Positions 252-48,824 of a DNA stretch of 60,000 nucleotides are shown here, piece after piece. Position numbers and translations under genes: made by a program. Source of the DNA: Bolinopsis microptera (lineage: Eukaryota; Ctenophora; Tentaculata; Lobata; Bolinopsidae); assembly GCF_026151205.1 (NCBI RefSeq), contig NC_087072.1, positions 13,432,169-13,492,168 of the forward strand, given 5' to 3'. The notes below the pieces were generated by a model. That model was not told the origin of the DNA. It made no database searches and worked only from the letters and a program-made list of their open reading frames with translations. The first letter of the stretch is position 1; each line of letters starts with the position of its first letter.

Positions 252-3200
252 ATGTCAAGCTTACCTAAAGCGAAAGTTTGTGATAAATGTAACAAACGTA
301 TTCCAAAAACCGCGCCTCTGCTTACTTGCTCACTTTGCAACGACACCAAGCATCCTAAATGTATGAGACTCTCGAAATCTGATTCCCTGCACATAATATC
401 TTCAGGCTTTTCTTGGACCTGTTACGATTGTTTAGCCAGTGCCCTCCCTATCAATGCGTGCCATTCACCAGTCGAGAAGCCTGCATTCGGGCCTGTATTC
501 AAAGTTAAATGCAATTCCTGTGCAGGATGGTGCTATTCACCAAAAAACCTAAGATATTGTAACTGGTGTGGAAAAAGTATACATTCCAAGTGTATGAAAC
601 ACGAGTTAGGTTGTAAAACATGTTGTGAATCTATGATTCCTGGTTTCAACTACGAACCACACCATCTACTTGATGATTACAGCCACCTACATGACTTATT
701 TTTTAATCCATATGATAGAGAAAACATTGCAAATGATATAGGTAATCAACTTGATGATGAACAGGACAGGGAGTACTTTGATGAAATTTCAAATATACTG
801 GTAGAATGTAGATATAAGGAACAGAAGCACGTACAGAACTCAGGAGCAAACGAGCTGAAATTATTTTCACTGAATATTCGATCGCTGATCAAGAATATTG
901 AACACCTGCGAGAAAACATAGAAACATACTGCAAGTACGATGTCCTATGTCTGAACGAAACCAATCTCATTGAATCCAATTTGCCCAATGGCGTAACTGA
1001 TATTTTACTCGAGGGTTTCCATGAACCTCTACTTAAGGGCCCAAACAGAACTTCGGGTCGGGGTGGTGGTCTTGCAATTTATATCAATAAGCGAGTGTGT
1101 GAGTTTGAGAATATTGAACAATTTATTCCTAATCTCCGGGACGTAGATGAGATCACCAAATCGGCAGGTGAATTCATGTTGGTGAAAATTAACAACTGTA
1201 AAGGACTCAACAAAACCAAACTAATTGTTGACGTTTATAGGTCTCCATCACGTGACCCCGATAAGTTCATAGCTTTACTTGATTCCGTACTATTAAGCTT
1301 AGACCGTCACAACAGAAAACACATAATGTTTGCTGGAGATTTTAATTTAGACCTCATAAACCACAGCAACAATGTACATTGCCAAAATCTAGTGGACACC
1401 ATGTCGAAATACGGTTTTTTTCAGCTTGTTGCACGACCAACACGAGTTACAAGTCACAGCAGGACCTTAATTGATCATGTCTACAGCAACGATGTTCAGC
1501 ATACTCTCAGTTGCAATGTCCTGACAGTTGACATTTCAGACCATTTTGCCACCTTGACTACGATCTCTCTTGGTGATTTCTCTTACAGTCCTGCTAATGA
1601 TCGATCCAAAACCGAACGATCACAAAAGCGTGATACACGTGCATTCAACGCCGCTAATAACTTAAAATTTTACGAACTGATCGACGCTGAAAATTGGGAG
1701 CAAATAACATCAAACATGGATGCTAATGAGCAGTATGATAAGTTCAACGAAATTTACAACAAGCACTATAACACCGCGTATCCAATCAAATCTAAGCATG
1801 TCAGAAGGATGAATGAAAGGAAAAACCCCAAGCCTTTTATTCTGCCGTGGCTTGAAGACGCGTGTGCTCGAAAAAACTTGATGTATTTTGAATCCACAGT
1901 TTGCCCCACACAGAAAAATGTTGCTACGTACAAAAAATTGAAAAATTTTTGTGAAAAACATATCAATCTAGCAAGGGACAAATACCACAAAAAATACTTT
2001 GAAGAATATCAGTACAATTCCAAGAAACAGTGGGAGATGATAAATAAACTTCTAGGCAGGAAAGCTAAGCAAAATTCCAAATTCAAATTGAGGAGAGATG
2101 ATGGAAACTTGATAAATTCGAACCGCGATGTTGCTGAACATTTCAACGCGTACTTTGCTAATATAGCAACTAGAATCAAAGATCAGATCAGTGCGCGTAC
2201 CACTTTCGACCCTGGCGGGCATGCAAGATATTTAGACAGCCAGGTTGAGGAGAGCATGTTCATCTCGCCAACTGATCCTGTCGAAATCCAACGAACAATA
2301 TGTACCTTGAAAAATAAGGCCACACAGGATGTAAAAGTTGAGCCGCTCAAGATTGCCAAGGATTGTCCTAAGTTTTGTGGAATACTCTCAAATGTAGTAA
2401 ATTCTTCCTTCAATGAAGGCTGCTTTCCGACATCACTGAAAATTGCAAAGGTAGTTCCTATCCTTAAGGGAGGCTCAAAACTAGATGTGAAAAACTACAG
2501 ACCAATATCATTGCTCTGCACCTTTTCAAAAATCTATGAGAAACTCATGCACAGAAGAGTCCTTGACTTCCTGGAGCGACATAGCACTTTATTTGAAGGA
2601 CAATACGGTTTTCGGCCGGGTCGGTCGTGTGAACATGCGCTCCTTGATGCAACCAACACGATTAGACACAACCTCTCCAAAAAAGAGGTCTCTCTACTCC
2701 TCCTACTTGATTTTAGCAAAGCGTTTGATGTAATTTCCCACGATATTCTCTTAGACAAACTGTATCATTATGGCATAAGAGGACTAGCACACCAATGGTT
2801 CAAGTCTTATCTAAGTTCCAGGAGTCAGTATGTTTCAATAGGGGGCACAAATTCTTCCTCACAGTCCATGAGACACGGAGTGCCGCAAGGCAGTATTTTA
2901 GGACCTTTACTTTTCATAATATATATCAATGACATGCCAAAAATCAAATCGTACGCTAAATTTGTTTTATATGCTGACGACGCAAACATAATTATCTCAG
3001 GTAAAAATCATCAAGAAATACTACAAAAGATGACCGAATTTTCACCTTTATTGATAAACTGGGTAGATCAAAATGGTCTTTCGTTAAACCTTAAGAAAAC
3101 GTGCTACATGCTCCTCTCACCCAACAGAACCTCAACACCTGACGTAAATATTCAAATTGCAGGCACCACTATTGAGCGAAAAACTGAGGCCCGATTTCTT

Positions 3201-3914
3201 GGCGTAATTGTTGACGAAAAATTGACCTGGACCAGTCACATTACTGCTCTTAAAGCGAAAATGATGCGGTATATTGGTATTATGTACAAAATAAAAAGTC
3301 GGCTGCCGATTAAAGTTAGACTCCAGATATACCAAAGCTTTGTACAGTCTCATATAAACTATTGTTCATTGATATGGGGTTTTGCTGCAAAAAGCCATAT
3401 AGATGCTTTATTCAGCAAACAGAAGCAAGGAATAAGGGCTATTATGCCTGGCTTCGTAAACTACTACTTTAAGGAAGGTGCCTTACCACAACACACAAAG
3501 CCATTTTTCAGTGAACATGAAATTCTCACTGTGCATGGTCTTATCGTTTACAACTCAATTATCTTGATGCATAAAGTTAAAAACATGCCACAATTAGTCC
3601 CCAAAAACATCTCTCAAGCTTTTCCCGCCGACATACCCACAAAACTTTCTGATCACACGTCAGCCTGCTCCTGGCTCCAGTTATACGGGAAAAGACACTT
3701 TCAAAACAGTATTTTCTACAAGGGACCACTGCTCTCTGTCTTCGCAGACAAAGCAGACGTTACTACACTTCCGACATTATTTTCGATAAATCTGTTCAAG
3801 AGTAGTGCCAAGAAAATGCTACTTAATCTTCAAAGTGATGGTGATGTTAACGAGTGGCAACCATTCCTACTGCACAATGTTCCTGGCCTAAGACAGTCTA
3901 GACGTGAAATTTAA
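252..3914 (+). CDS. Non-LTR retrotransposon polyprotein, PHD finger + endonuclease + reverse transcriptase, intact
   Basis: A single uninterrupted 1,220-residue frame. Residues 10-60 form a C4HC3 PHD-type finger (C10, C13, C26, C29, H34, C37, C57, C60), followed by a second Cys/His cluster at 87-125. Residues ~203-440 are an APE-type endonuclease (N208, E236, GDFN at 362-365, DH at 408-409, SDH at 429-431). The reverse transcriptase follows with NYRPISLL, GFRPGRSCEHAL, LLDFSKAFD, GVPQGSILGPLLF and the catalytic YADD at ~907-910. There is no RNase H domain. Architecture resembles the CR1/Jockey group, but with the PHD finger fused to the pol frame instead of sitting in a separate ORF1; clade is not certain. 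No stop or frameshift suggests recent activity. It lies in sense orientation upstream of the KAT2 exons, probably inside a KAT2 intron. The pyrimidine-rich 5' flank (1-251) is likely its 5' UTR. Confidence 0.93.
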   Translation: MSSLPKAKVCDKCNKRIPKTAPLLTCSLCNDTKHPKCMRLSKSDSLHIISSGFSWTCYDCLASALPINACHSPVEKPAFGPVFKVKCNSCAGWCYSPKNLRYCNWCGKSIHSKCMKHELGCKTCCESMIPGFNYEPHHLLDDYSHLHDLFFNPYDRENIANDIGNQLDDEQDREYFDEISNILVECRYKEQKHVQNSGANELKLFSLNIRSLIKNIEHLRENIETYCKYDVLCLNETNLIESNLPNGVTDILLEGFHEPLLKGPNRTSGRGGGLAIYINKRVCEFENIEQFIPNLRDVDEITKSAGEFMLVKINNCKGLNKTKLIVDVYRSPSRDPDKFIALLDSVLLSLDRHNRKHIMFAGDFNLDLINHSNNVHCQNLVDTMSKYGFFQLVARPTRVTSHSRTLIDHVYSNDVQHTLSCNVLTVDISDHFATLTTISLGDFSYSPANDRSKTERSQKRDTRAFNAANNLKFYELIDAENWEQITSNMDANEQYDKFNEIYNKHYNTAYPIKSKHVRRMNERKNPKPFILPWLEDACARKNLMYFESTVCPTQKNVATYKKLKNFCEKHINLARDKYHKKYFEEYQYNSKKQWEMINKLLGRKAKQNSKFKLRRDDGNLINSNRDVAEHFNAYFANIATRIKDQISARTTFDPGGHARYLDSQVEESMFISPTDPVEIQRTICTLKNKATQDVKVEPLKIAKDCPKFCGILSNVVNSSFNEGCFPTSLKIAKVVPILKGGSKLDVKNYRPISLLCTFSKIYEKLMHRRVLDFLERHSTLFEGQYGFRPGRSCEHALLDATNTIRHNLSKKEVSLLLLLDFSKAFDVISHDILLDKLYHYGIRGLAHQWFKSYLSSRSQYVSIGGTNSSSQSMRHGVPQGSILGPLLFIIYINDMPKIKSYAKFVLYADDANIIISGKNHQEILQKMTEFSPLLINWVDQNGLSLNLKKTCYMLLSPNRTSTPDVNIQIAGTTIERKTEARFLGVIVDEKLTWTSHITALKAKMMRYIGIMYKIKSRLPIKVRLQIYQSFVQSHINYCSLIWGFAAKSHIDALFSKQKQGIRAIMPGFVNYYFKEGALPQHTKPFFSEHEILTVHGLIVYNSIILMHKVKNMPQLVPKNISQAFPADIPTKLSDHTSACSWLQLYGKRHFQNSIFYKGPLLSVFADKADVTTLPTLFSINLFKSSAKKMLLNLQSDGDVNEWQPFLLHNVPGLRQSRREI

Positions 3915-4546: not shown

Positions 4547-7365
4547 CAACATTACTCTTTCACTTTCTCTTTCTCTTTCTCACTGCCTACCCCTGCTAAC
4601 TGCAGTGACAGGAACCCTGAATCAGACCAAGCTGCTTACAAAACTATTTATCTGAGGTTTAAACTTTAACAACATTACTCTTTCTCTTTCACTTTCTCTT
4701 TCTCACTGCCTACCCCTGCTAACTACAGTGACAGGAACCCTGAATCAGACCAAGCTGCTTACAAAACTATTTATCTGAGGTTTAAACTTTAACAACATTA
4801 CTCTTTCTCTTTCACTTTCTCTTTCTCACTGCCTACCCCTGCTAACTACAGTGACAGGAACCCTGAATCAGACCAAGCTGCTTACAAAACTATTTATCTG
4901 AGGTTTAAACTTTAACAACATTACTCTTTCACTTTCTCTTTCTCTTTCTCACTGCCTACCCCTGCTAACTGCAGTGACAGGAACCCTGAATCAGACCAAG
5001 CTGCTTACAAAACTATTTATCTGAGGTTTAAACTTTAACAACATTACTCTTTCACTTTCTCTTTCACTTTCTCTTTCTCACTGTCTACCCCTGCTAACTA
5101 CAGTGACAGGAACCCTGAATCAGACCAAGCTGCTTACAAAACTATTTATCTGAGGTTTAAACTTTAACAACATTACTCTTTCTCTTTCACTTTCTCTTTC
5201 TCACTGCCTACCCCTGCTAACTGCAGTGACAGGAACCCTGAATCAGACCAAGCTGCTTACAAAACTATTTATCTGAGGTTTAAACTTTAACAACATTACT
5301 CTTTCTCTTTCACTTTCTCTTTCTCACTGCCTACCCCTGCTAACTACAGTGACAGGAACCCTGAATCAGACCAAGCTGCTTACAAAACTATTTATCTGAG
5401 GTTTAAACTTTAACAACATTACTCTTTCACTTTCTCTTTCTCTTTCTCACTGCCTACCCCTGCTAACTGCAGTGACAGGAACCCTGAATCAGACCAAGCT
5501 GCTTACAAAACTATTTATCTGAGGTTTAAACTTTAACAACATTACTCTTTCACTTTCTCTTTCACTTTCTCTTTCTCACTGCCTACCCCTGCTAACTACA
5601 GTGACAGGAACCCTGAATCAGACCAAGCTGCTTACAAAACTATTTATCTGAGGTTTAAACTTTAACAACATTACTCTTTCACTTTCTCTTTCTCTTTCTC
5701 ACTGCCTACCCCTGCTAACTGCAGTGACAGGAACCCTGAATCAGACCAAGCTGCTTACAAAACTATTTATCTGAGGTTTAAACTTTAACAACATTACTCT
5801 TTCACTTTCTCTTTCTCTTTCTCACTGCCTACCCCTGCTAACTGCAGTGACAGGAACCCTGAATCAGACCAAGCTGCTTACAAAACTATTTATCTGAGGT
5901 TTAAACTTTAACAACATTACTCTTTCACTTTCTCTTTCACTTTCTCTTTCTCACTGCCTACCCCTGCTAACTACAGTGACAGGAACCCTGAATCAGACCA
6001 AGCTGCTTACAAAACTATTTATCTGAGGTTTAAACTTTAACAACATTACTCTTTCACTTTCTCTTTCTCTTTCTCACTGCCTACCCCTGCTAACTGCAGT
6101 GACAGGAACCCTGAATCAGACCAAGCTGCTTACAAAACTATTTATCTGAGGTTTAAACTTTAACAACATTACTCTTTCACTTTCTCTTTCACTTTCTCTT
6201 TCTCACTGTCTACCCCTGCTAACTACAGTGACAGGAACCCTGAATCAGACCAAGCTGCTTACAAAACTATTTATCTGAGGTTTAAACTTTAACAACATTA
6301 CTCTTTCTCTTTCACTTTCTCTTTCTCACTGCCTACCCCTGCTAACTGCAGTGACAGGAACCCTGAATCAGACCAAGCTGCTTACAAAACTATTTATCTG
6401 AGGTTTAAACTTTAACAACATTACTCTTTCTCTTTCACTTTCTCTTTCTCACTGCCTACCCCTGCTAACTACAGTGACAGGAACCCTGAATCAGACCAAG
6501 CTGCTTACAAAACTATTTATCTGAGGTTTAAACTTTAACAACATTACTCTTTCACTTTCTCTTTCTCTTTCTCACTGCCTACCCCTGCTAACTGCAGTGA
6601 CAGGAACCCTGAATCAGACCAAGCTGCTTACAAAACTATTTATCTGAGGTTTAAACTTTAACAACATTACTCTTTCACTTTCTCTTTCACTTTCTCTTTC
6701 TCACTGCCTACCCCTGCTAACTACAGTGACAGGAACCCTGAATCAGACCAAGCTGCTTACAAAACTATTTATCTGAGGTTTAAACTTTAACAACATTACT
6801 CTTTCACTTTCTCTTTCTCTTTCTCACTGCCTACCCCTGCTAACTGCAGTGACAGGAACCCTGAATCAGACCAAGCTGCTTACAAAACTATTTATCTGAG
6901 GTTTAAACTTTAACAACATTACTCTTTCACTTTCTCTTTCTCTTTCTCACTGCCTACCCCTGCTAACTGCAGTGACAGGAACCCTGAATCAGACCAAGCT
7001 GCTTACAAAACTATTTATCTGAGGTTTAAACTTTAACAACATTACTCTTTCACTTTCTCTTTCACTTTCTCTTTCTCACTGCCTACCCCTGCTAACTACA
7101 GTGACAGGAACCCTGAATCAGACCAAGCTGCTTAAAAAACTATTTATCTGAGGTTTAAACTTTAACAACATTACTCTTTCACTTTCTCTTTCACTTTCTC
7201 TTTCTCACTGCCTACCCCTGCTAACTACAGTGACAGGAACCCTGAATCAGACCAAGCTGCTTAAAAAACTATTTATCTGAGGTTTAAACTTTAACAACAT
7301 CAGTCTTTCACTTTCACTTTCTCTTTCACTTTCTCTTTCTCACTGCCTACCTTTGCTAACTACAG

Positions 7366-12023
<4,658 letters not shown>

Positions 12024-18061: not shown

Positions 18062-18424
18062 CTAAGAACGGACATCTCCACAAGCCCCCTTGATAAAAGT
18101 GTTGTATCGGAAATAGGTCTGAGTATCTCTTGTCTCCACATCCTCATCAGATACCAGGTAAATAGTTTGAGCGTGTATCACCGGACCTCCTGGAACCTTC
18201 TTGTAGGGGATCTTATCCAGACCCACAGCTCCACATCCAGCATCTTTAGCACAGGCTTTCTTAGCTTTCTTCACGCTACTAAAAAGGTTCCTTGAAGTAT
18301 TGTGAGCGTGGTGCCGTATAACCTTATTTAGGAGGTGGCACCATTCTCCTGTGGTTTCAGAAGCTGTTTCCGTGATGGGGAGGGTCGTCAGGACAATAAA
18401 CAGTATCATTGGTTTAGTTGTCAT
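18062..18424 (-). CDS. Secreted cysteine-rich protein, PAN/apple-like family, member 1
   Basis: Single-exon gene of 120 residues. A hydrophobic N-terminus (MILFIVLTTLPI, with a second Met at residue 6) fits a signal peptide. Four cysteines (C29, C58, C64, C115) follow the family pattern: GEWC, then SVKKAKKACAKDAGCGAVGLD, IPYKKVPGGPV, QTIYLVS, a YN(T/S) motif and a final KGxC. The AKxACxxDxxCGxV core resembles single PAN/apple domains, which bind protein or carbohydrate; this link is inference from pattern only. It lies about 1.4 kb beyond the innexin stop, in the same orientation, and next to a broken copy. No function is known to me. Confidence 0.85.
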   Translation of the reverse strand: MTTKPMILFIVLTTLPITETASETTGEWCHLLNKVIRHHAHNTSRNLFSSVKKAKKACAKDAGCGAVGLDKIPYKKVPGGPVIHAQTIYLVSDEDVETRDTQTYFRYNTFIKGACGDVRS

Positions 18425-19804
18425 GCTACTCCTAATCTCTTTTCCTAAAAAACAGGGTTATCTTACATATAGTTACAGCTATAAAATAAAAGAGGGATAA
18501 TTCGAGAGCAATGATCTTCATTCTCCATCGATTTTGTCCCCTTTACTATACTCAACAACTAGTGCTCTGAATCGTATCCTTGCAGGTTATGATTATATTA
18601 ATTGTCCTGGCTCGCCAATCCCTGCGCGCGGCGCTCTTTTCAAGCTTCCTGAACAGGAAATGAGAGGAGCGGGCAACAGACTAGCAAGCTAGGTAATACT
18701 AATAGTTGTCACCAATCCCTAATAGTAATTTAATCAAACCATAGACCCATGCTTTTATCAGTTGTATGGAGGCAGAAACTCTAAGTTTAATCCTTACTTA
18801 AAAGCACCGGACGGTGGTCAATCACAATATCTAATCAATCGAAGTTAAAGTCTAATAAATCATTCACCAAAATGAAATGCCCTAGTGAGTCATTAATATA
18901 ATATAAGGCACCGTACAAACAATATAAGGCACCGTACAAACTGTGTTAGAAAACAAAGCAAGGACTCAGTATGTAATAATTCAGAGTGTTACCCTCTTAA
19001 CAGAAGTCTGATGAGCTGGAACGAATAAAGAAATTAAGTAATAAGTATTACATAATATTATATTATTATATTGTACCTGTACGGTGAGATTGACAATAAA
19101 ACCTTATACCTTGTTTGTCGGGCCCAAACGTTATACCCTTGTATTCTTTTTATTGCCATTAAGTTTAACATTATTATAAACGATAAAGCTTAATATTTCT
19201 TTCTTCGTCTAATATCATATTAATATTATTACGTAATTGAAATTACTCTATGAGATAATTTTCCGGAACAATGAACGTTCATCGAACCATAAAGTAAATA
19301 ATCATCTAAAAACAGTTCAGTACCACTTGAATATTATTTTCATGAGTTGAGTTTAATCTATATCATCTTTTTAATCAAAAATACGGTATATTGCGTTAAA
19401 CCAGCACCAATAAAACACAGCCGAAACTGAACTTGAACACCGAACCGAACCGAAATTTCGGTCGTTTCCTAAAATGACATTCAGCCAAAGCAATTTTATA
19501 ATTTGTAAGAAATTTGAAAACTAAAAAGTTTAAATTGTGGACAATAAAATTTCCGAGGGAATGATTTTGTTGTAGTTGTTATGATAACAGTGGACTCGAT
19601 CTTTTTATTTTCAGATCTGATATTACTTATGAAGTAGCCTCAATAAATGATAGCCTTTCTTTCAAAGAAAATGTATTTTGTACATAAAATGATAATAAAC
19701 AATAAATTTCAAATACTACTAGTACTATACTATATTTCAAATATAACAATTTTGTCATATCATCAATTAAAAGACATCAAATTTTGCACAATAGTTTTCT
19801 CCCA
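18425..19804. other. AT-rich spacer
   Basis: No gene recognised between the secreted gene and the innexin stop. A 22-bp direct duplication (ATATAAGGCACCGTACAAAC) lies at about 18900-18940. Confidence 0.4.
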
Positions 19805-22800
19805 TCATGACATAGTATTACTTCTGGGTCTCATAGTAATGTTATTGTTAGCTTTATTCATGTTACTGTTTGTTTTAGTCATACATTGAGGAACCACTCC
19901 AAACGCCAGAGCAGCGGACTCCATCAGGGGTTGACGGGGCATCTCGGGCGGGGCCCCGTTTATCCTGTAAAACTCTAAGGCAGGCTTGTTCTTCCTCCGT
20001 CTCTGCAGGCTATCTATTTTCTTTACAACTTTAGAGGACACCATAGCTAGCATGTATCCGCTCATATTCTCTGATAGTTTAGCAACCACAATACGGCCTG
20101 TTTAATACCTTTATTACACATGTTGTCATGTGGTTTAAATTAATGACTGTTAATGTGGCCTATAATATCCAGATACCCATTAACTTTATATTTTGTACTT
20201 TTTTAATATACCAAAGTACTAAGACTGTACTTATTAACCAGTGGCGTAACGTTGCCTGTTGGCAAAATTATAATTGTTCAGGAGTCAGGACTACAGTGCT
20301 GCAAGCCGCCGTTTATTTCAAAACGGCGGCGGCGTGATTAAAATCGGCGGCGGCGGTGTAATCGGCGTGAGGTCACGTGATTTCGCAGATTAAATTTTCC
20401 TCTGGAATAATGCCATGTGGAGACTGGAGAGCAATTTTTAACAGTTTTGAATTTTGAAACGAGGCTCGTAATATTTAGTAGTATATAGTATAAACAGGTT
20501 CATGCCGTGTACGCCGTATGAAAACGGCGGCGGCGGCGTTGCCGGTAAATCATCGGCGGCAGCGTTCGGCGGCGGCGTGCAGCACTGCAGGACTAATTAA
20601 ATGTTCAATCTGTATTCTGTATGTAGCTTGAAAAATATACCTGAAGGTCCAATGTATCCGAACATCCGTGTGAAATCAGCAGTGGTCTGCATCATGGAGG
20701 AATTAACAATCCACTTGTGTGTTATGTTAGGGTTCAGGAACTTGAACATTGTGTAAAACCAACTATGCAGTTAAAAGTTAGTGGGTAATGTTAGGGTTCA
20801 GGAACTTGAACATTGTGTAAAACCAACTATGCAGTTAAAAGTTAGTGGGTTATAATGTTGGGGTTCAGGAACTTGAACATTGTGTAAAACCAACTGTGCA
20901 GTTAAAAGTTAGTGGGTTATAATGTTGGGGTTCAGGAACTTGAACATTGTGTAAAACCAACTATGCAGTTAAAAGTTAGTGGGTTATAATGTTGGGGTTC
21001 AGGAACTTGAACATTGTGTAAAACCAACTATGCAGTTAAAAGTTAGTGGGTTATAATGTTGGGGTTCAGGAACTTGAACATTGTGTAAAACCAACTATGC
21101 AGTTAAAAGTTAGTGGGTTATAATGTTGGGGTTCAGGAACTTGAACATTGTGTAAAACCAACTATGCAGTTAAAAGTTAGTGGGTAATGTTAGGGTTCAG
21201 GAACTTGAACATTGTGTAAAACCAACTATGCAGTTAAAAGTTAGTGGGTAATGTTAGGGTTCAGGAACTTGAACATTGTGTAAAACCAACTATGCAGTTA
21301 AAAGTTAGTGGGTTATAATGTTGGGGTTCAGGAACTTGAACATTGTGTAAAACCAACTGTGCAGTTAAAAGTTAGTGGGTTATAATGTTGGGGTTCAGGA
21401 ACTTGAACATTGTGTAAAACCAACTGTGCAGTTAAAAGTTAGTGGGTTATAATGTTGGGGTTCAGGAACTTGAACATTGTGTAAAACCAACTGTGCAGTT
21501 AAAAGTTAGTGGGTTATAATGTTGGGGTTCAGGAACTTGAACATTGTGTAAAACCAACTATGCAGTTAAAAGTTAGTGGGTTATAATGTTGGGGTTCAGG
21601 AACTTGAACATGGTGTAAAACCAACTATGCAGTTAAAAGTTAGTGGGTTATAATGTTGGGGTTCAGGAACTTGAACATTGTGTAAAACCAACTATGCAGT
21701 TAAAAGTTAGTGGGTTATAATGTTGGGGTTCAGGAACTTGAACATTGTGTAAAACCAACTATGCAGTTAAAAGTTAGTGGGTTATAATGTTGGGGTTCAG
21801 GAACTTGAACATTGTGTAAAACCAACTGTGCAGTTAAAAGTTAGTGGGTTATAATGTTGGGGTTCAGGAACTTGAACATTGTGTAAAACCAACTATGCAG
21901 TTAAAAGTTAGTGGGTTATAATGTTGGGGTTCAGGAACTTGAACATTGTGTAAAACCAACTATGCAGTTAAAAGTTAGTGGGTTATAATGTTGGGGTTCA
22001 GGAACTTGAACATTGTGTAAAACCAACTATGCAGTTAAAAGTTAGTGGGTTATAATGTAAGGGTTCAGGAACTTGAACATTGTGTAAAACCAACTATGCA
22101 GTTAAAAGTTAGTGGGTTATAATGTTGGGGTTCAGGAACTTGAACATTGTGTAAAACCAACTATGCAGTTAAAAGTTAGTGGGTTATAATGTTGGGGTTC
22201 AGGAACTTGAACATTGTGTAAAACCAACTATGCAGTTAAAAGTTAGTGGGTTATAATGTTGGGGTTCAGGAACTTGAACATTGTGTAAAACCAACTATGC
22301 AGTTAAAAGTTAGTGGGTAATGTTAGGGTTCAGGAACTTGAACATTGTGTAAAACAAACTATGCAGTTAAAAGTTAGTGGGTTATAATGTTGGGGTTCAG
22401 GAACTTGAACATTGTGTAAAACCAACTATGCAGTTAAAAGTTAGTGGGTAATGTTAGGGTTCAGGAACTTGAACATTGTGTAAAACCAACTATGCAGTTA
22501 AAAGTTAGTGGGTTATAATGTTGGGGTTCAGGAACTTGAACATTGTGTAAAACCAACTATGCAGTTAAAAGTTAGTGGGTTATAATGTTGGGGTTCAGGA
22601 ACTTGAACATTGTGTAAAACCAACTATGCAGTTAAAAGTTAGTGGGTTATAATGTTGGGGTTTAGGAACTTGAACATTGTGTAAAACCAACTATGCAGTT
22701 AAAAGTTAGTGGGTTATAATGTTGGGGTTTAGGAACTTGAACATTGTGTAAAACCAACTATGCAGTTAAAAGTTAGTGGGTTATAATGTTGGGGTTCAGG

Positions 22801-25514
22801 AACTTGAACATTGTGTAAAACCAACTGTGCAGTTAAAAGTTAGTGGGTTATAATGTTGGGGTTCAGGAACTTGAACATTGTGTAAAACCAACTATGCAGT
22901 TAAAAGTTAGTGGGTAATGTTAGGGTTCAGGAACTTGGACATTGTGTAAAACCAACTGTGCAGTTAAAAGTTAGTGGGTAATGTTGGGGTTCAGGAACTT
23001 GAACATTGTGTAAAACCAACTATGCAGTTAAAAGTTAGTGGGTAATGTTAGGGTTCAGGAACTTGAACATTGTGTAAAACCAACTATGCAGTTAAAAGTT
23101 AGTGGGTTATAATGTTGGGGTTCAGGAACTTGAACATTGTGTAAAACCAACTGTGCAGTTAAAAGTTAGTGGGTTATAATGTTGGGGTTCAGGAACTTGA
23201 ACATTGTGTAAAACCAACTATGCAGTTAAAAGTTAGTGGGTAATGTTAGGGTTCAGGAACTTGAACATTGTGTAAAACTAACTATGCAGTTAAAAGTTAG
23301 TGGGTTATAATGTTGGGGTTCAGGAACTTGAACATTGTGTAAAACCAACTGTGCAGTTAAAAGTTAGTGGGTTATAATGTTGGGGTTCAGGAACTTGAAC
23401 ATTGTGTAAAACCAACTATGCAGTTAAAAGTTAGTGGGTTATAATGTTGGGGTTCAGGAACTTGAACATTGTGTAAAACCAACTATGCAGTTAAAAGTTA
23501 GTGGGTAATGTTAGGGTTCAGGAACTTGAACATTGTGTAAAACCAACTGTGCAGTTAAAAGTTAGTGGGTTATAATGTTGGGGTTCAGGAACTTGAACAT
23601 TGTGTAAAACCAACTATGCAGTTAAAAGTTAGTGGGTTATAATGTTGGGGTTCAGGAACTTGAACATTGTGTAAAACCAACTATGCAGTTAAAAGTTAGT
23701 GGGTAATGTTAGGGTTCAGGAACTTGAACATTGTGTAAAACCAACTATGCAGTTAAAAGTTAGTGGGTTATAATGTTGGGGTTCAGGAACTTGAACATTG
23801 TGTAAAACCAACTATGCAGTTAAAAGTTAGTGGGTTATAATGTTGGGGTTCAGGAACTTGAACATTGTGTAAAACCAACTATGCAGTTAAAAGTTAGTGG
23901 GTTATAATGTTGGGGTTCAGGAACTTGAACATTGTGTAAAACCAACTATGCAGTTAAAAGTTAGTGGGTAATGTTAGGGTTCAGGAACTTGAACATTGTG
24001 TAAAACCAACTATGCAGTTAAAAGTTAGTGGGTTATAATGTTGGGGTTCAGGAACTTGAACATTGTGTAAAACCAACTATGCAGTTAAAAGTTAGTGGGT
24101 TATAATGCTGGGGTTCAGGAACTTGAACATTGTGTAAAACCAACTATGCAGTTAAAAGTTAGTGGGTTATAATGTTGGGGTTCAGGAACTTGAACATTGT
24201 GTAAAACCAACTATGCAGTTAAAAGTTAGTGGGTTATAATGTTGGGGTTCAGGAACTTGAACATTGTGTAAAACCAACTATGCAGTTAAAAGTTAGTGGG
24301 TTATAATGCTGGGGTTCAGGAACTTGAACATTGTGTAAAACCAACTATGCAGTTAAAAGTTAGTGGGTTATAATGTTGGGGTTCAGGAACTTGAACATTG
24401 TGTAAAACCAACTATGCAGTTAAAAGTTAGTGGGTTATAATGTTGGGGTTCAGGAACTTGAACATTGTGTAAAACCAACTGTGCAGTTAAAAGTTAGTGG
24501 GTTATAATGTTGGGGTTCAGGAACTTGAACATTGTGTAAAACCAACTATGCAGTTAAAAGTTAGTGGGTTATAATGTTGGGGTTCAGGAACTTGAACATT
24601 GTGTAAAACCAACTGTGCAGTTAAAAGTTAGTTCGGTTATTCTATTTTAATTTAGAACCATTCTAAATAAGAAAAATAATGTAGAACTACATTATTTTTA
24701 TTATTTAGAATGGTTTTATTATTTAGAATGGTTTTATTTAGATGTATTATCGAGAAGCTTTGTGGAGGAGGTAGTATTCAAATTCATTCAACCTTTATTC
24801 AGTTCTAACACGATGTAGTTATAATCAATATGAAAACATCGTTCATTTGATCATTCTAGTTGCGTTTTATACTGTCCATAGTTAAAACATAGTACCTGAT
24901 AGCATTGAGGAATATAAGAGCAACGTTAAGGTACCACATCACTAGGAACAGGTATTGGTACATCACATTTAGCGCCAGAGTACACATTCCTGTAACATTA
25001 GACAAGTCAGCACTCAAGACACGACAATAATTTAGCGTTTTAGTTATAAGTTTTTAATAATTTAGCGTTTTAGTTGTAAGTTTTTAATAATTTAGCGTTT
25101 TAGTTGTAAGTTTTTAAGTTTTTACAACTACTGCAGCTGGTTAGAAATCGTTGAGAAAATAAATGGCCGTAAGAAAATATGTATTAGATACGACACGTCT
25201 GGTATAAGAGGAAATGCAGAACCCACTCTTTGTATGAATCATGTTACCATAGTTACCATAGTTACCATAGTTATCATGGTTACACTGCAGAGTACAGTAC
25301 GGTTATTGATAGAAACTTAAAAACCAACCTGTTTCAAACTCCAAGCCTGAAGCAGCCCACTTCTCGATACGACACGCCACCACTTTAGGGAAGAGAACAT
25401 CCTTCACGTGAGTCTGGGAGCCTCCAGTCGGCATCCCGAACATCAAGCCGTACGTGATCCAGTTCCCTATCTTGAACATGCGTGCGGTAAGCAGCATGTG
25501 TCCTATTGCTATCA
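19805..25514 (-). CDS. Innexin, 3' half (TM3, second loop, TM4, C-terminus); exons 7-10 of proposed gene
   Basis: Gap-junction channel subunit with four membrane helices. Exons on the minus strand, all phase-compatible: 25329-25514 (HMLLTARMFKIGNWITYGLM; VLFPKVVACRIEKWAASGLE), 24896-24989 (C, then MYQYLFLVMWYLNVALIFL, TM4), 20641-20762 (WFYTMFKFLNPNITHKWIV, RMFGYIGPSG) and 19805-20097 (RIVVAKLSENMSGYMLAMV, then a basic tail; stop TGA at 19805). The second extracellular loop has the two expected cysteines. The intron before exon 20641-20762 consists mostly of a satellite derived from that exon's own acceptor; the acceptor chosen (TAG before T-TGG at 20762) is the only one giving both correct phase and an open frame. 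The missing 5' half is proposed to be at 52153-54267. A short exon preceding 25514 was not found. Confidence 0.87.
20294..20587. mobile_element. GC-rich hAT-type MITE, 294 bp
   Basis: Begins CAGTGCTGCA and ends TGCAGCACTG, with GCCGCC/GGCGGC stretches next to both ends, and is flanked by the 8-bp duplication CAGGACTA at 20286-20293 and 20588-20595. It lies in the last innexin intron (20098-20640). No coding capacity. Confidence 0.9.
20726..24633 (-). repeat. ~59-copy satellite of 64/67-bp units, each an innexin 3' splice site plus exon start
   Basis: On the gene's sense (minus) strand each unit reads CCCACTAACTTTTAACTGC, then AYAG, then T TGG TTT TAC ACA ATG TTC AAG TTC CTG AAC. The first part is a branch-point-like CTAAC about 16 nt before an AG acceptor; the second is identical to the first ~34 nt of the real innexin exon (20641-20762). 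Two unit lengths exist: 64 bp (ending AACATTACCCAC) and 67 bp (ending AACATTATAACCCAC). The acceptor is TAG in most copies and CAG in a sizeable minority. Units are nearly identical apart from these sites. The array fills most of the intron 20763-24895. Confidence 0.92.
25022..25120. repeat. Three-copy ~30-bp tandem repeat
   Basis: AATAATTTAGCGTTTTAGTT occurs three times, each followed by GTAAGTTTTT or ATAAGTTTTT, in the innexin intron between TM3 and TM4 exons. Confidence 0.85.
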
Positions 25515-26096: not shown

Positions 26097-26546
26097 TTAT
26101 TCCTCCATAGGACAGGGCCCCTTAACATAGGTATTAAATCTCCGTTGGCCTCCTAGAACAGGTTTTGTCTCCACGTCCACAGCTGATACCAGGTAAATAG
26201 TTTGAGCGTGTATCACGGGACCTCCTGGAACCTTCCTGTAGGGGATCCTATCCAGACCCACAGCTCCACACCCAGCATCCTTCTCACAAGCAGATTTAGC
26301 TCCGTCCAAACTGCTGTAGAACTTGTTCTCTTCCCTGTTGTAGAGCGAGATGAAGCTCTTGAATCTGGCGCACCATTCTCCTGTAACCACTGGTGCCGGG
26401 GTTGGTGCCGGGGTTGTCGTAACCTCAGCAGGGGTGGTGGAGCCCCAGGTTTCCCAAGAAGTGGTACTGTCAGGAGCAGAGGTGCTCGATAGGATAGGTC
26501 TGCTGAAGAGAGATACCAGCGTGAATAACATTACGATGTACGCCAT
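26097..26546 (-). CDS. Secreted cysteine-rich protein, PAN/apple-like family, member 2, with Thr/Pro-rich linker
   Basis: Single-exon gene. I chose the ATG at 26546, because MAYIVMLFTLVSLFSRPILS is a good signal peptide; a longer frame to 26627 adds 27 residues without signal character. The 149-residue product has a Ser/Thr/Pro-rich linker (residues ~20-55, likely O-glycosylated) before the family domain: GEWC (C59), AKSACEKDAGCGAVGLD (C87, C93), IPYRKVPGGPVIHAQTIYLV and VKGPC (C145). It is nested in the giant innexin intron in the same orientation as the host gene. It differs from its siblings in having the stalk. Confidence 0.86.
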   Translation of the reverse strand: MAYIVMLFTLVSLFSRPILSSTSAPDSTTSWETWGSTTPAEVTTTPAPTPAPVVTGEWCARFKSFISLYNREENKFYSSLDGAKSACEKDAGCGAVGLDRIPYRKVPGGPVIHAQTIYLVSAVDVETKPVLGGQRRFNTYVKGPCPMEE

Positions 26547-28402
26547 TTTACTTTTGGAAGACCTGTTATGGAACATTTGTGAAATTACAAAAATTGTAGT
26601 ATGTTTAAATAGCACTTCACTCTTCAAGAGTAGTGTTAATATTGTTTTAATTTCGTCTGGCCGAGTGGAGATACTTCAATCTACGAGGAGTGTCTAAAAT
26701 CCCATATTAAATAAAATAAATCGCATTAACCTGAATTTACCAAATAGATGCAAGAAATATTTCAAGCATGATTTTCAATTATTCATGTTGGATAAACGCT
26801 CACGTAATGTCCATCCATTTGATGCCACCCAAATTAAAGTTCAGTAGAATGTTTTGATGTGTAATGTCCGCACAAATAAAGTTCGATAAGTAATACTAGT
26901 ACTAGTACTACAAGTACATAGATACAGAGATACAGAGCCCGCGAAATTTTATGATATATAACGGATTGAGCACTGAAGATTTTAATATCTAATGTTAGAA
27001 TATAAACGTTGAAGAGAAACCGTATGGATCATGAACAAAGCTAAGGCGCAAAGTGGGCAAGTAAATTAGTTAGTAAATTCACAACTGCTTGTTGAATTTT
27101 CACCTCTTTAAATTGTGGCTTTATTACAATAAAATAATTTAGAGCTATAATGGTTATCAATTATAATAGGGGGAAGGTGCAGCTGAGACCACATATTCCA
27201 CGATGGTATCTGATACTAGTTACTACTACTAGTACTAATAATATAAGCTATAATGGTTAATGCATATAAATAAAATAACTCAAATTAATTGCAGTATTTA
27301 GGACCTTAGCTGTTTGCGTTTGCCCATGTTTCTCCTCGTTAATTAGAGGAGTTAATTACTGATGGTTTGGTAAATTATGAACGAAATGAGATGTTTACCT
27401 GCATTTAATAGGAGAGGGGTGAACATTGTTTTTGGGGTTTAAGGTCTCTAGAACAGGCTCAAATCGACTGGCCATATTATTTACAACTTAATTCCTTTAT
27501 TTACAACGTAATGCCCAAAAATTATGCCTAATTTTGGAGTTATTGGCCAAAAACTGATCTTGGCAATGCTGACCCATTTTTTAAACGTTTGATAGAAAAA
27601 TATTAAAGACCTCTAGATCATGAGTTTAAACTAACCGCAGGGTGGGGGAGTGACAGGTTAAACCGGGAAAAACTTCCCGAACCCACTTCCAAGCGATGCA
27701 GGGCCCTCGATAAGAATATAAGTTTGTAACTTCCTGCCCTTTTCAAAAAATCATCCGGATAATTTCAACTGAGAGACTGTAATTTCTGTTAGAATATAAA
27801 AATTCTGAAGCGTTGTTACTTCTATCATTCAGCTGATCCAGCAAACTATACGTTATCCTAGTGTAAGTTCCAACTATAAAGTGCGGTAATTCTACCAATC
27901 AGTGACGTCTGATTTATCGTGTGAACAATTATAAATGATGAGAAAACTTACAAAAACAAACAAGCGAACAACATTTACATTAGTAATTAATGTCGTCAGC
28001 TGAGTCCGTACGCCGTAATAGCATCTAAAGCAAAATCACTGATTAGGGGGTGCACTGTTAATCAGGAGCTCTATGAGGCAACCTTCCAGCAAGATCAAAG
28101 ACTTGTTTACTGCTTAGATTTAGACAATAATTCAATACATACCTCGTCGATAGGTCTCTTCGAACCTCAAATTTAAGAATTTATTGCAATGTTTTCCTTT
28201 GCATAACAAAAACCTTGTCGCGTATAACTGAATAACTTGAAAAAGAAGAAGAATTGTGGGTTTGCAACCATCCGGAAGTATAATCTAGATCTGTTAAACA
28301 GACTACGAGTTACCGGGGCGCCATGACATACTTTTGTTTCGCCGCATAATCTCCAAGTGTGCTAACTTACAATTAGTCGGATCCCAACCGTTCTAAAAGG
28401 CT
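26547..28402. other. AT-rich intron sequence
   Basis: Part of the proposed giant innexin intron. TATTTAAA lies about 60 bp upstream of the gene at 26546. Otherwise no gene or clear repeat recognised. Confidence 0.4.
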
Positions 28403-36967: not shown

Positions 36968-37273
36968 TTAGCACTTCACGTAGGAGTTGTACCGGTAGCT
37001 TCCTCTTCCTCCTTTCTTTACCTTCTCCATGTCCATCAAGTAAATAGTGTGGTCGAACACTTTAGGCCCTCCTGCTACTTGCCGGTAGGGTATCCGGTCC
37101 AATCCTACTCCACCGCAGCTGTTGTCCTCCTCGCACACGGCTTTTGCTTCATCCACGTCTTTGTAGGCAGGAGCTAGACGGTTGAAGTTGGTGTAAAAGG
37201 TCCTCTTTTTCTCGCACCAGCTTCCTGCTGTCAGCCCCAGTAGAGCTATCATAGTCACAAACAGCAGCTTCAT
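36968..37273 (-). CDS. Secreted cysteine-rich protein, PAN/apple-like family, member 3
   Basis: Single-exon gene of 101 residues, the shortest and most minimal member. MKLLFVTMIALLGLTAG is a clear signal peptide. Four cysteines: C20 (SWC), C47 and C53 in DEAKAVCEEDNSCGGVGLD, and the terminal C101. The IPYRQVAGGP and TIYLMD blocks and a YRYNSY motif are conserved, but at the DNA level it is more diverged than the other three. It is nested in the giant innexin intron in the same orientation. A TATA box (37305-37316) lies about 37 bp upstream of the ATG, implying a very short 5' UTR. Confidence 0.87.
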   Translation of the reverse strand: MKLLFVTMIALLGLTAGSWCEKKRTFYTNFNRLAPAYKDVDEAKAVCEEDNSCGGVGLDRIPYRQVAGGPKVFDHTIYLMDMEKVKKGGRGSYRYNSYVKC

Positions 37274-37304
37274 TCTACTGGATACTTTGTATGATTATGA
37301 CAAA

Positions 37305-40430: not shown

Positions 40431-40954
40431 GAGGGTAGTCCTTTAGAGGGTAGTCATTTAGAGGGTAGTCATTTAGAGGGTAGTCATTTAGAGGGTAGTC
40501 ATTTAGAGGGTAGTCATTTAGAGGGTAGTCATTTAGAGGGTAGTCCTTTAGAGGGTAGTCATTTAGAGGGTAGTCATTTAGAGGGTAGTCCTTTAGAGGG
40601 TAGTCATTTAGAGGGTAGTCATTTAGAGGGTAGTCCTTTAGAGGGTAGTCATTTAGAGGGTAGTCATTTAGAGGGTAGTCATTTAGAGGGTAGTCCTTTA
40701 GAGGGTAGTCATTTAGAGGGTAGTCATTTAGAGGGTAGTCATTTAGAGGGTAGTCATTTAGAGGGTAGTCATTTAGAGGGTAGTCATTTAGAGGGTAGTC
40801 ATTTAGATGGTAGTCATTTAGAGGGTAGTCATTTAGAGGGTAGTCATTTAGAGGGTAGTCATTTAGAGGGTAGTCATTTAGAGGGTAGTCATTTATATGG
40901 TAGTCATTTAGAGGGTAGTCATTTAGAGGGTAGTCATTTAGAGGGTAGTCATTT
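40431..40954. repeat. 15-bp minisatellite, ~35 copies
   Basis: Units GAGGGTAGTCATTTA, with CCTTTA variants at irregular positions. As the unit is a multiple of three, one plus-strand frame (EGSHL/EGSPL) and one minus-strand frame (NDYPL) stay open throughout. Confidence 0.95.
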
Positions 40955-42539: not shown

Positions 42540-42914
42540 TTACTGTACATTTCTCAACGTCTTGCTCTTCTTTTTCTTCGTCTTGCATTCCCCTTTTGCA
42601 TAAAAGCCGTATCTCCAGGACGGTGAACCTGATTGCAATATCCCGAACTCTCCGGGGATCAGGTAGATAGTCTTGTCGAACACCACCGGACCTCCTGGAA
42701 CCTTCCTGTAAGGGATTTTATCCAGACCCACAGCTCCACATCCAGCATCTTTAGCACAGGCTTTCTTAGCTTTCTTCAGAGAAGGATATGCTTTAGTCTC
42801 CCTGTTGAAGCTTTGGAGGAATCTGCCTTCGTTTTCTCTCCACTCAAATGTACACTTGTTCTTTTTGGCTGCCACCACCGAGACCACTAACAGCACCAGA
42901 AGAAGATATCTCAT
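42540..42914 (-). CDS. Secreted cysteine-rich protein, PAN/apple-like family, member 4
   Basis: Single-exon gene of 124 residues. MRYLLLVLLVVSVVAA is a clear signal peptide. Cysteines C21, C53, C59 and C110; the first is displaced relative to siblings (C four residues before a conserved W instead of WC). The core SLKKAKKACAKDAGCGAVGLD is almost identical to member 1 and IPYRKVPGGPV to member 2. A Lys-rich C-terminal tail (KTKKKKSK) is unique to this member. It is nested in the giant innexin intron in the same orientation. A TATA box (42955-42966) lies ~43 bp upstream of the ATG. Confidence 0.87.
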   Translation of the reverse strand: MRYLLLVLLVVSVVAAKKNKCTFEWRENEGRFLQSFNRETKAYPSLKKAKKACAKDAGCGAVGLDKIPYRKVPGGPVVFDKTIYLIPGEFGILQSGSPSWRYGFYAKGECKTKKKKSKTLRNVQ

Positions 42915-42954
42915 TTTCCTGTTTTAACGGGATTTAATTAGTCGAGCTGGAACG

Positions 42955-45700: not shown

Positions 45701-48700
45701 TATATTATATTTATAAATTAATTTAATATAATTTATTTTATTAGGCATCGTTTACAGATTGCGTAATCCTTTTTTTTTGCAATTTTAGGACAGCTGGAAC
45801 CACTTAATGCATGGCTATATTGTGGAAATTACACTAGCAAAAGGTTTTCCAAACCCAATCCTTTAGGTATTTCGTAAGACCCCATCAAACAGTAAATTTG
45901 TTGCAGCATTTCAACAAAATTAACATTGAATAGCCGGTCGGAATATGTCCGGTACGTTTCGAGGTTCGAAACATGCGATGGATATTAAGTAAGAATAAGA
46001 GCCCGGTGTTTGTGTTTTATACCCTCCCCTGCTTTACGGACGATTCTGGTCGAAACAAACGGTTCATTAAGAGACAGCTGGATCAGGGCGAACCCCTTTA
46101 AGAAGCAGCTGCCTGTCTGGGGAACTAATTTACTTTGAAGTTCTGCAGCATATAACTAAACCTAGTAAAGGCATAAGTATTCATAACGGGTGGCAGAAAC
46201 TGCAACAATAATAATATTGCAATTATATTATAAAACTATAAAACAACAGATGACTAATGAGTTAAACTGATCTTTCCGATCTGTCCTGTGGAGGGCACTA
46301 TCATTAGTAATAGTGCCATCGTCACATTACTATAAACGTGACGTCACATCAGTATAAACGTGACGTCACATCAGTATAAACGTCGCAAAGAAAGCGTACG
46401 CACCTTCTGTCCCAGGTACGAGATATAACGGCCCAGAAACTGTAGTATTATTGTCAGGATGATGCTCCGCACAACAATGGATATAATTATGTTTCACTGT
46501 GTTCTGTGAGGAATTTAACGTGTGCAGCTATAGTTATACAATATTGAATATACATGCACTCTATTCTCCCCCGTCAAGGAGCCTCACTCTGTATGTGACT
46601 ATTCAACCGTTAAACAATTATCAGTTGCAATATGAACAAGTTTAACATGATATCGTCCATGAAGTTAAGTTTGAGGATATTGGTAAATTTCTAAAATAGC
46701 GTTTTCGACGGTATTTTAGAAATCAATCTAGCGTGTTCTTAAGTTCTGAACATTAGCCACGTGACCCATACTCCTATATGTACTGCTCAGAAATAAAATG
46801 TTTTGCTTTTAGGTACTATAATGTAAAAATAGATACAGTCTGGGCGAGAGTCATGTAAAGATAACCATTCGTCGAAATATCGTCCCAGAGTCTTAAACCA
46901 AGAACTTAAATTTAAAAATAACTGAATGTTAGTGAACTGGAAGTACGTGAAGCAGCTATATACGGACAGCTGCGCTCATCATATTTGGTCTCAACATTCC
47001 TCCTTATCTGCTTACTTGTATCAAGATATATGCCTGTAGTCTCGTAGTGTATTTAAACTGTGCTACACTTCAGTCTGTTACTATGATCTGTGATAAATTT
47101 AAATTTGTAAATGTTCAAGTAAAAAAGGGTCGTTCTAAATAAGAATTCCACTGTAGTTTGCTTGCATCAAGAATCAAGATTCTTTGGCCTTACTAGCTTG
47201 CATCAAGATGTAACTTATAAGTTATACTTTATAGTATGGTAGGTAAACTGTGCTACACTTCAGTATGGACGAAATTTACAAATGTTTACCATGTTCAGGT
47301 GTTGAAATTTTGCCAATGTTAACATATCACTGCCATATAATAATTTATATGACCAGTGTGTGGTTGAAATATTGTTAATTGATCCATAGTACGTAATATA
47401 GGGTGTTTAAGTTGGTTTACTAATATTTACTCAATTTCACACATGTTCATGAGATATCATACAAATGTATGTGACAAAGTTTACCTATTTCTGCCTTCTG
47501 TATTTGTATTTGCCTATAACAATGAAATATGTGAACAATTCCAAACACATTCAGCTCACAAAATAATGCTAGACTATTCGGCATTCCTTGTCAGGATGTC
47601 ATAAACATCCCTCATGTAAATTTCTTAAATGTGTGACGGAGTTTACATGGTGCTACCATTTAACGAAAAAAGTCGCTAAATATGTAGATAATAGTCATAT
47701 GCAACTATCCTATGAATTGGAAATTCGAAAATTTTGTCAAACACGGCAACAAGGGGTCCATAAAAACTCTGTCACGTTTTTATAGTGTGACAAAGTTTAC
47801 AACTCACTGCCGGCCGCATTTAAGCGATATGTTATCGACTGATAAAGATACCGTTATGCGACAAAGTTTATCTAGACTAGAGGATAACGATTATCCTAGG
47901 CAGTAGGCATAGAGGGTTTATATAATTTCATAGTGTGACACATTTTACATCTTCGTGTCATTTAGTAGGGTCACTAATATTTACCAATATCCTCAAACTT
48001 CAAAGTCCGTATACTTATATTTACGATAACGATGATAAAAACTGTATCAAAGATATGAGATCAATAAATATGATAAGTAATTATGTTGTGTTTGGATTTG
48101 ACGAATTGGCTATGATCGTCAAGGGTCCACTTTCTTCAAAAAATTAAAAATATAACCAAGTAAAAACTTACCAAAGTACAAAAACTTGACAGCGGTGACC
48201 CCGAAAACAAGACTGAAGTCACCCCAAAACCGGTGAAACGAGGAAGTTGTTGCGTATCTCGGGTAAACAACCTGTGAGGAAATTCAGATCATCATCTGGA
48301 TTGAAAACTTTATTTAACTTTTAAGATGTGAAAATTCAGTTTGGCATCTTAAATCTGCTGAAAATTCTGCCCGAAGAAGCCTTTCAAAATTAGCTGCACA
48401 CTCTTATCATAGATTTGAGAAGCATCTAATTCTAGATTATATATTCCCTTTGTAATTGTAAAATTAATTTTGTAGTGGGGGACAGAAAGGGTATGATAGC
48501 TCCTTTTAAAGGTTTTACACATTGCATGTATTTTCCCGGTTGTTAGGCCTGAGGGCTGGTTAAAGATTATTAAGAAATAAAACATTAAGCTCAGCTCACA
48601 ATTATTGTACACCACACCTTTCATGTTAGTAGATTTGAGAATTGAATTATGAATTTTACTACAGAAAATCTTGTTAACCATCAAATTCAATTTCATTAGA

Positions 48701-48824
48701 CACCTGACTAACTTATTTAATAAGTTATTAAATTAAGGCTAAATAATCCTCAAAAAGCTCCAGCCTAGGCGTCAATCTACCTACTTACCTACAAATCGAA
48801 ACTTCTTAACTTCTTAAAACGAAG
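45701..48824. other. Intron sequence and protease upstream region
   Basis: Contains a 22-bp duplication with CRE sites (46331-46382), a repeated AAACTGTGCTACACTTCAGT (about 47056 and 47248) and scattered TGACAAAGTTTAC-like motifs (47462-47950). No other gene recognised. Confidence 0.4.
46331..46382. promoter_or_regulatory. Tandem CRE-like sites
   Basis: A 22-bp unit containing TATAAACGTGACGTCACATC is duplicated; TGACGTCA, the CREB/ATF consensus, lies at 46339-46346 and 46361-46368. Confidence 0.5.

Follow-up and report, generated by a model that had tools for sequence, protein, structure and literature searches.

How does a gene keep to the right acceptor when the intron ahead of that acceptor is filled with near-identical copies of it? 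The question is raised by a locus of the lobate ctenophore Bolinopsis microptera (contig NC_087072.1, a window of 60,000 nucleotides in all), where an innexin gene has in its penultimate intron (intron 8, 4133 nt) a long tandem array of units, each spanning a putative branch point, an acceptor dinucleotide and the beginning of the next exon. A precedent exists in amphioxus, for which passages of PMC3087553 describe 'mirages', that is, copies of a boundary between intron and exon that are arranged in tandem like a minisatellite and lie beside the authentic one, in Adh3 and in the globin genes BflGb6 and BflGb9, to which passages of PMC3902484 add PGBD5 and TnC.

The host gene

Matches to the innexin family (PF00876) were obtained both for a C-terminal piece, running from TM3 to the C-terminus (E=1.3e-13), and for an N-terminal piece (1.3e-7), and the former is also related to the solved Innexin-6 structure (5h1q, presumably that of C. 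elegans; 2.2e-8). A search with the assembled chain retrieved P0003, 'innexin shaking-B-like isoform X2 [Bolinopsis microptera]', of 452 aa, so that the family match, the relation to a solved innexin and the NCBI name all place the gene where a first, sequence-only reading had placed it. Pfam scans of translated stretches in which stops were written as X missed the innexin exons, and the Thymopoietin match that they gave, with no passing stretch behind it, was discarded as spurious.

By exact peptide mapping, P0003 was placed on ten in-phase exons from 54267 down to 19808 (Table 1). Residues 283-314 (TM4) fall at 24898-24993 and residues 315-356, which comprise the WFYTMFKFLNP segment, at 20639-20764; TM4 is thus joined in the annotated protein to the exon that follows the array, and not to a different downstream exon that would leave this segment non-coding. 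The start segment of exon 9 includes SWFYTMFKFLNP. The remaining introns measure 194, 205, 239, 339, 543, 913, 3881 and 22,657 nt, the largest (22.7 kb) separating exons 6 and 7.

The gene shares its surroundings with other coding sequences. Four related small, probably secreted proteins with GAVGLDKIPYRKVPGGPV-like motifs are encoded at 18065-18457, 26100-26675, 36971-37294 and 42540-42923, three of the four genes lying inside the 22.7-kb intron, and the one protein scanned against Pfam gave no match. A cathepsin-L-like gene with a cysteine-rich tail, so named from the look of its sequence, occupies the other strand of the innexin's fifth intron (48810-50670), and a 15-bp array at 40431-40954 is open on both strands, with EGSHL repeats on the plus strand and DYPLN on the minus strand.

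Table 1. Positions within the window of the innexin exons, the acceptor array and the KAT2A donor arrays
Feature	Position	Strand	Details
Innexin exons 1-3	54134-54267, 53129-53220, 52841-52934	-	junction edges by eye
Innexin exons 4-6	52465-52601, 52153-52259, 48172-48271	-	junction edges by eye
Innexin exon 7	25329-25514	-	end of TM3 to second extracellular loop
Innexin exon 8	24896-24989	-	TM4, 94 nt; donor GTACTA at 24895, joins exon 9
Innexin exon 9	20641-20762	-	122 nt, SWFYTMFKFLNPNITH...GPS; 5' edge acceptor TAG, donor GTATAT at 20640
Innexin exon 10	19805-20097	-	C-terminus and stop
Ghost acceptor units (n=58)	20763-24630	-	CTAAC + (T/C)AG + copied exon 9 start
Hairpin, near-perfect, strong	24656-24715	-	~25 nt upstream of first ghost unit
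KAT2A exon 6 ghost donor units (23/26)	4547-7420	+	123-135 bp; Tandem Repeats Finder array, P0007 mapping
KAT2A exon 11 donor junction	9957-10004	+	junction ..GGGGATGCAG|GT; three 16-bp copies

Anatomy of the acceptor array

Tandem Repeats Finder delimits the array at 20724-24640, with a 67-bp period, 59.0 copies, 97% matches and a score of 7328, and splitting the minus strand yields 59 acceptor copies with exon starts from 24612 down to 20762, the last being the real site and the 58 others being called ghosts hereafter. The observation of about 59 copies of a 3' splice site plus exon start filling the intron is therefore confirmed. Judged by eye, a unit combines the last ~18-26 nt of the intron with the first ~39-46 nt of exon 9, ATAAC on both sides blurring the intron/exon join. 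Most ghosts are 67 bp long (46/58), the others 64 bp (12/58); the acceptor ends in TAG in 46/58 and in CAG in 12/58, and the spacing from CTAAC to AG is constant across 59/59 copies.

Identity to the real acceptor was found for 44/58 ghosts over -3..+6 and for 41/58 over -18..+33, the latter meaning that local sequence barely distinguishes the correct acceptor. Past +39, real exon 9 differs from the 64-bp units, as seen by eye, at two third codon positions within a few bases. The earlier description of each unit as CTAAC, AG and exon start holds for 59/59 copies, but its claim of identity with the exon has to be narrowed, as two unit lengths occur and the match to the real site extends over -18..+39 in 7/58 only.

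Twelve unit types succeed one another along the array in an order that appears random and non-periodic, and no higher-order repeat was found within it, in the sense of a recurring word of at least five units. The hairpin upstream of the array has a folding energy of -29.2 kcal/mol over 106 nt (z -9.3) and could have acted as a trigger of slippage.

What the ghosts encode

When exon 8 is joined in turn to each acceptor, the frame stays open for 1/59 only, namely the site at 20762, which is also the acceptor used in the annotated protein P0003; that the last unit alone would provide both the phase and the open frame required by exon 24896-24989 had been correctly read. All ghosts (58/58) run into a stop after 1-17 residues, their products before it being SWFYTMFKFLNPNIITH (43), SWFYTMFKFLNPNITH (9), single-residue variants (5) or S alone (1), with SWFYTMFKFLNPN(I)ITH read immediately before the stop in 52/58. 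Except in the S-only ghost, this stop is the TAA of the following unit's CTAAC (CAC-TAA-C); being supplied by the branch-point-like sequence of the next unit, it is automatic. With 1/59 copies open, the structure does not belong with arrays of alternative exons.

Ghost stops precede the exon 9 donor by distances between 137 nt (last ghost) and 3920 nt (first ghost). A stop lying far before an exon junction makes a transcript a target of nonsense-mediated decay, and by this distance rule innexin mRNAs spliced to a ghost would be expected to be such targets.

Since its tandem units lie across an intron-exon boundary and the last of them is itself a genuine exon of the gene, as established by the mapping of P0003 and the PF00876 match, the array is by anatomy a mirage, or splice-junction minisatellite.

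Donor arrays in a KAT2A-like gene

Some 13 kb from the innexin array, a KAT2A-like gene carries the mirror case, with 26 ghost donors; the two genes are not adjacent, other open frames lying between them. The ghost copies follow upon the last ~80 nt of the real exon 6 plus GTTTAA. The real exon 6 and three more ghosts are located upstream of the window (L065:7279-7752 region), and the split into 3 ghosts before and 23 after is due to a ~6.8-kb stretch that holds a LINE-like ORF (252-3914; LINE by eye) and is probably an insertion. Ghosts and real donor are identical in 25/26 cases over -3..+6 and in 23/26 over -40..+15, and 26/26 ghosts read LRFKL and then a stop. A TAC-to-TAA change was seen in two of them.

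In the corresponding protein P0007, 'histone acetyltransferase KAT2A-like isoform X3', exon 6 occurs once and the frame is given only by the real donor. The annotated choice yields a 140-nt exon 6 and a 10,270-nt intron, where the last ghost donor would leave an intron of 212 nt. A reading of the array as a whole exon, with the CTAACTACAG acceptor plus 51 nt, was rejected, as the stretch is coding (ANYS) and the array donor-side by the P0007 mapping. Farther along the same gene, the donor junction of exon 11 is present in three copies (Table 1), two of which have the form CAG/GT. Regarding chaperonin genes, the 35 matches listed were without tandem ghosts, although the model used is scarcely able to score short ghosts.

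Origin of the array

A search of 264,652,675 bases of genome with the innexin repeat, in which the search tool skips very common words, returned one candidate locus, with 59/59 matches all at the present place, so that the array does not fall into the dispersed or centromeric satellite class; the KAT2A repeat, searched likewise, gave 27 matches, also at its own place only. The closest innexin paralogue found (C9) runs in a single open frame through the exon 9 start, without an intron, at 57% identity over the matched part. Among six proteins aligned and compared as proteins, P0001, P0004, P0005 and P0006 are gapless through SWFYTMFKFLNPNITHKWIVNSS. No gap being present at the exon 9 start in any of the four relatives that extend over it, the array is younger than the exon and has the junction as its source; the open frame of the C9 paralogue through the junction and the confinement of the repeat to one locus likewise make the array a derivative of it. 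The proposal that a satellite of ~3.9 kb arose from an intron-exon junction is upheld on both grounds.

In P0002 (eukprot sb/3471130), whose tag we take to stand for Pleurobrachia, what is missing corresponds precisely to exons 8 and 9, and the reading frame continues across the gap. Their absence may reflect skipping, or else a gap or mis-modelling at that place, and the edges of the gap suggest that the flanking intron positions are common to both genes.

A look for acceptor arrays at other innexin loci, which the sequence-only reading had called for, yielded no further case: among 50 of 65 locus stretches (L009-L058), with ~1.5 kb on each side and several of them overlapping or coming from the present gene itself, 1/50 had an array, and that one was the present exon. 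Two pairs of innexin matches with equal scores, each match in one open frame and with the same translations within a pair, were seen on C1 (C1:4254005/C1:4378223) and C7 (C7:6754013/C7:6935049), which are either recent duplicates or haplotypes placed side by side.

Site choice and rival explanations

The explanation that we consider probable as a whole is that of a mirage born by junction duplication and tolerated by way of exon definition. A short stretch straddling the junction of intron 8 with exon 9 would have been tandemly duplicated, by slippage or by a microhomology-joined duplication, and amplification to 58 extra copies would then have made a 4133-nt intron out of one of about 283 nt, a history consistent with the arithmetic of the locus (3850 bases of ghosts in total, leaving about 283 nt of intron 8), with CTAAC and AG retained in every ghost. 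Exon 9 would be defined across the exon, acceptor 20762 pairing with the near donor at 20640, while a ghost acceptor would require a longer exon, of 186-3972 nt; any splicing to a ghost would lead to an early stop and presumably to nonsense-mediated decay.

According to passages of PMC9225289, which concern human data, intron definition favours the sites nearest to each other across the intron and exon definition those nearest across the exon, with a switch between the two modes near 200-250 nt of intron. The annotated innexin acceptor entails the longest intron (4133 nt, as against 283 nt for the first ghost) and the shortest exon (122 nt), and since in both genes the choice made in the annotation couples the shortest exon with the longest intron, it fits exon definition. 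The annotation thereby suggests that sites in innexin and KAT2A are chosen in this manner, with the proviso that annotation pipelines prefer open frames, so that annotated proteins are no measure of ghost use. A counter-point comes from four short innexin introns (194, 205, 239 and 339 nt): in such a short-intron setting the first ghost, whose 283-nt intron is near the change-over at ~250 nt, would have the advantage under intron definition. Both annotated proteins, moreover, bear isoform labels (X2 for P0003, X3 for P0007) that point to other isoforms beside them. Some ghost splicing, of whatever size, may occur.

The origin could be sought elsewhere than in the junction. That the exon 9 start was taken from a pre-existing satellite which had landed in the intron would account for the near-identity of exon start and repeat unit, but it is largely contradicted, and must be deemed most improbable, by the gapless alignment of this segment with the C9 paralogue and with P0001, P0004, P0005 and P0006, and by the lack of the repeat at any other genomic place in the search. 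An assembly artefact, the array being far shorter in the animal, would be in line with the errors that assemblies make at tandem repeats and with the occurrence of some innexin paralogues twice with identical scores; the twelve unit types in non-periodic order, the seamless flanks and the second junction array of different build 13 kb away make it very unlikely. Less can be held against an ordinary intronic minisatellite whose overlap with the junction is coincidental and without consequence. Over 70 kb and two genes, with 32 arrays of period at least 12 and the KAT2A array counted as two, junction-spanning arrays numbered three (3/40) against about 0.65 expected by chance, given how many arrays there are and how large their units (Poisson P 0.029, post hoc); at such a density of arrays, junctions need not be favoured targets, and the excess is weak evidence for a preference, which is not claimed here. 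Coincidence would nevertheless explain the origin and not the correct reading of 59 near-equal sites, and we regard it as rather unlikely as a full account, even though its origin step is compatible with junction duplication tolerated through exon definition.

A functional role could also be envisaged, in which ghost use diverts pre-mRNA to stop-bearing transcripts and the copy number tunes gap-junction output or the amount of a truncated innexin. Such a splicing rheostat would be in keeping with the presence of AG and CTAAC in 58/58 ghosts (the CAG form in 12), with the early stop that 58/58 place after an intact TM4, and with the fact that the shortest introns come from the first ghosts. Against it stand the automatic origin of the stop from the branch-point sequence and the seemingly random order of the 12 unit types, without repeated words of at least five units, and tuning of this kind appears doubtful.

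Relation to known systems and significance

The novelty implied by the sequence-only reading was too high, since amphioxus mirages had already been published, as passages of PMC3087553 and PMC3902484 attest. As far as these passages go, the likeness is extensive, with 5' and 3' boundaries both affected and AG/GT retained in many copies. Of two BflGb6 haplotypes, one carries 6 units and the other 3, with 81-100% identity among units, and mirages are reported to be unstable in length, among haplotypes or in somatic cells; regular splicing is undisturbed according to the authors, as RT-PCR suggests (passages of PMC3087553). Unlike BflGb6 as there described, the present genes carry 58 ghosts in innexin and 26 in KAT2A, with AG in 58/58 innexin ghosts and 97% matches by Tandem Repeats Finder. 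Unlike the amphioxus cases, moreover, the host is a ctenophore and not a cephalochordate, and two arrays, one at an acceptor and one at a donor, lie 13 kb apart.

Two further systems invite comparison. Tandem alternative acceptors and arrays of mutually exclusive exons also have several acceptors competing for one donor, but the ghosts are without a usable exon, 1/59 being open. Intron gain by tandem duplication of an AG/GT segment, as cited in passages of PMC3087553, is alike in that the duplication spans a splice signal, but no new intron results here and the ghosts are intronic in the annotated product. No report of splice-junction arrays in ctenophores was found in the open-licence PMC literature; the terms 'tandem repeat' and 'intron' are absent from the main text of the B. 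microptera genome paper (PMC10232365), and 'tandem repeat' appears once, in another sense, in the Mnemiopsis chromosome paper (PMC11797021). What is new with respect to known mirages is the phylum, the scale and the pairing of a donor with an acceptor array. That junction arrays recur in the ctenophore genome and act as copy-number-dependent decoys setting gene output, the genes surviving by strict exon definition, is a generalisation that we think unlikely.

The locus adds to the mirages of lancelets a case from an animal lineage very remote from them, and indicates that junction arrays can reach about tenfold the size of the amphioxus globin cases, as described in passages of PMC3087553. It may also offer a natural competition between splice sites, with 58 near-equal acceptor rivals in one gene and 26 donor rivals in another, for a question often addressed by means of built minigenes, and one in which the rules of intron proximity and exon proximity predict opposite winners in both innexin and KAT2A.
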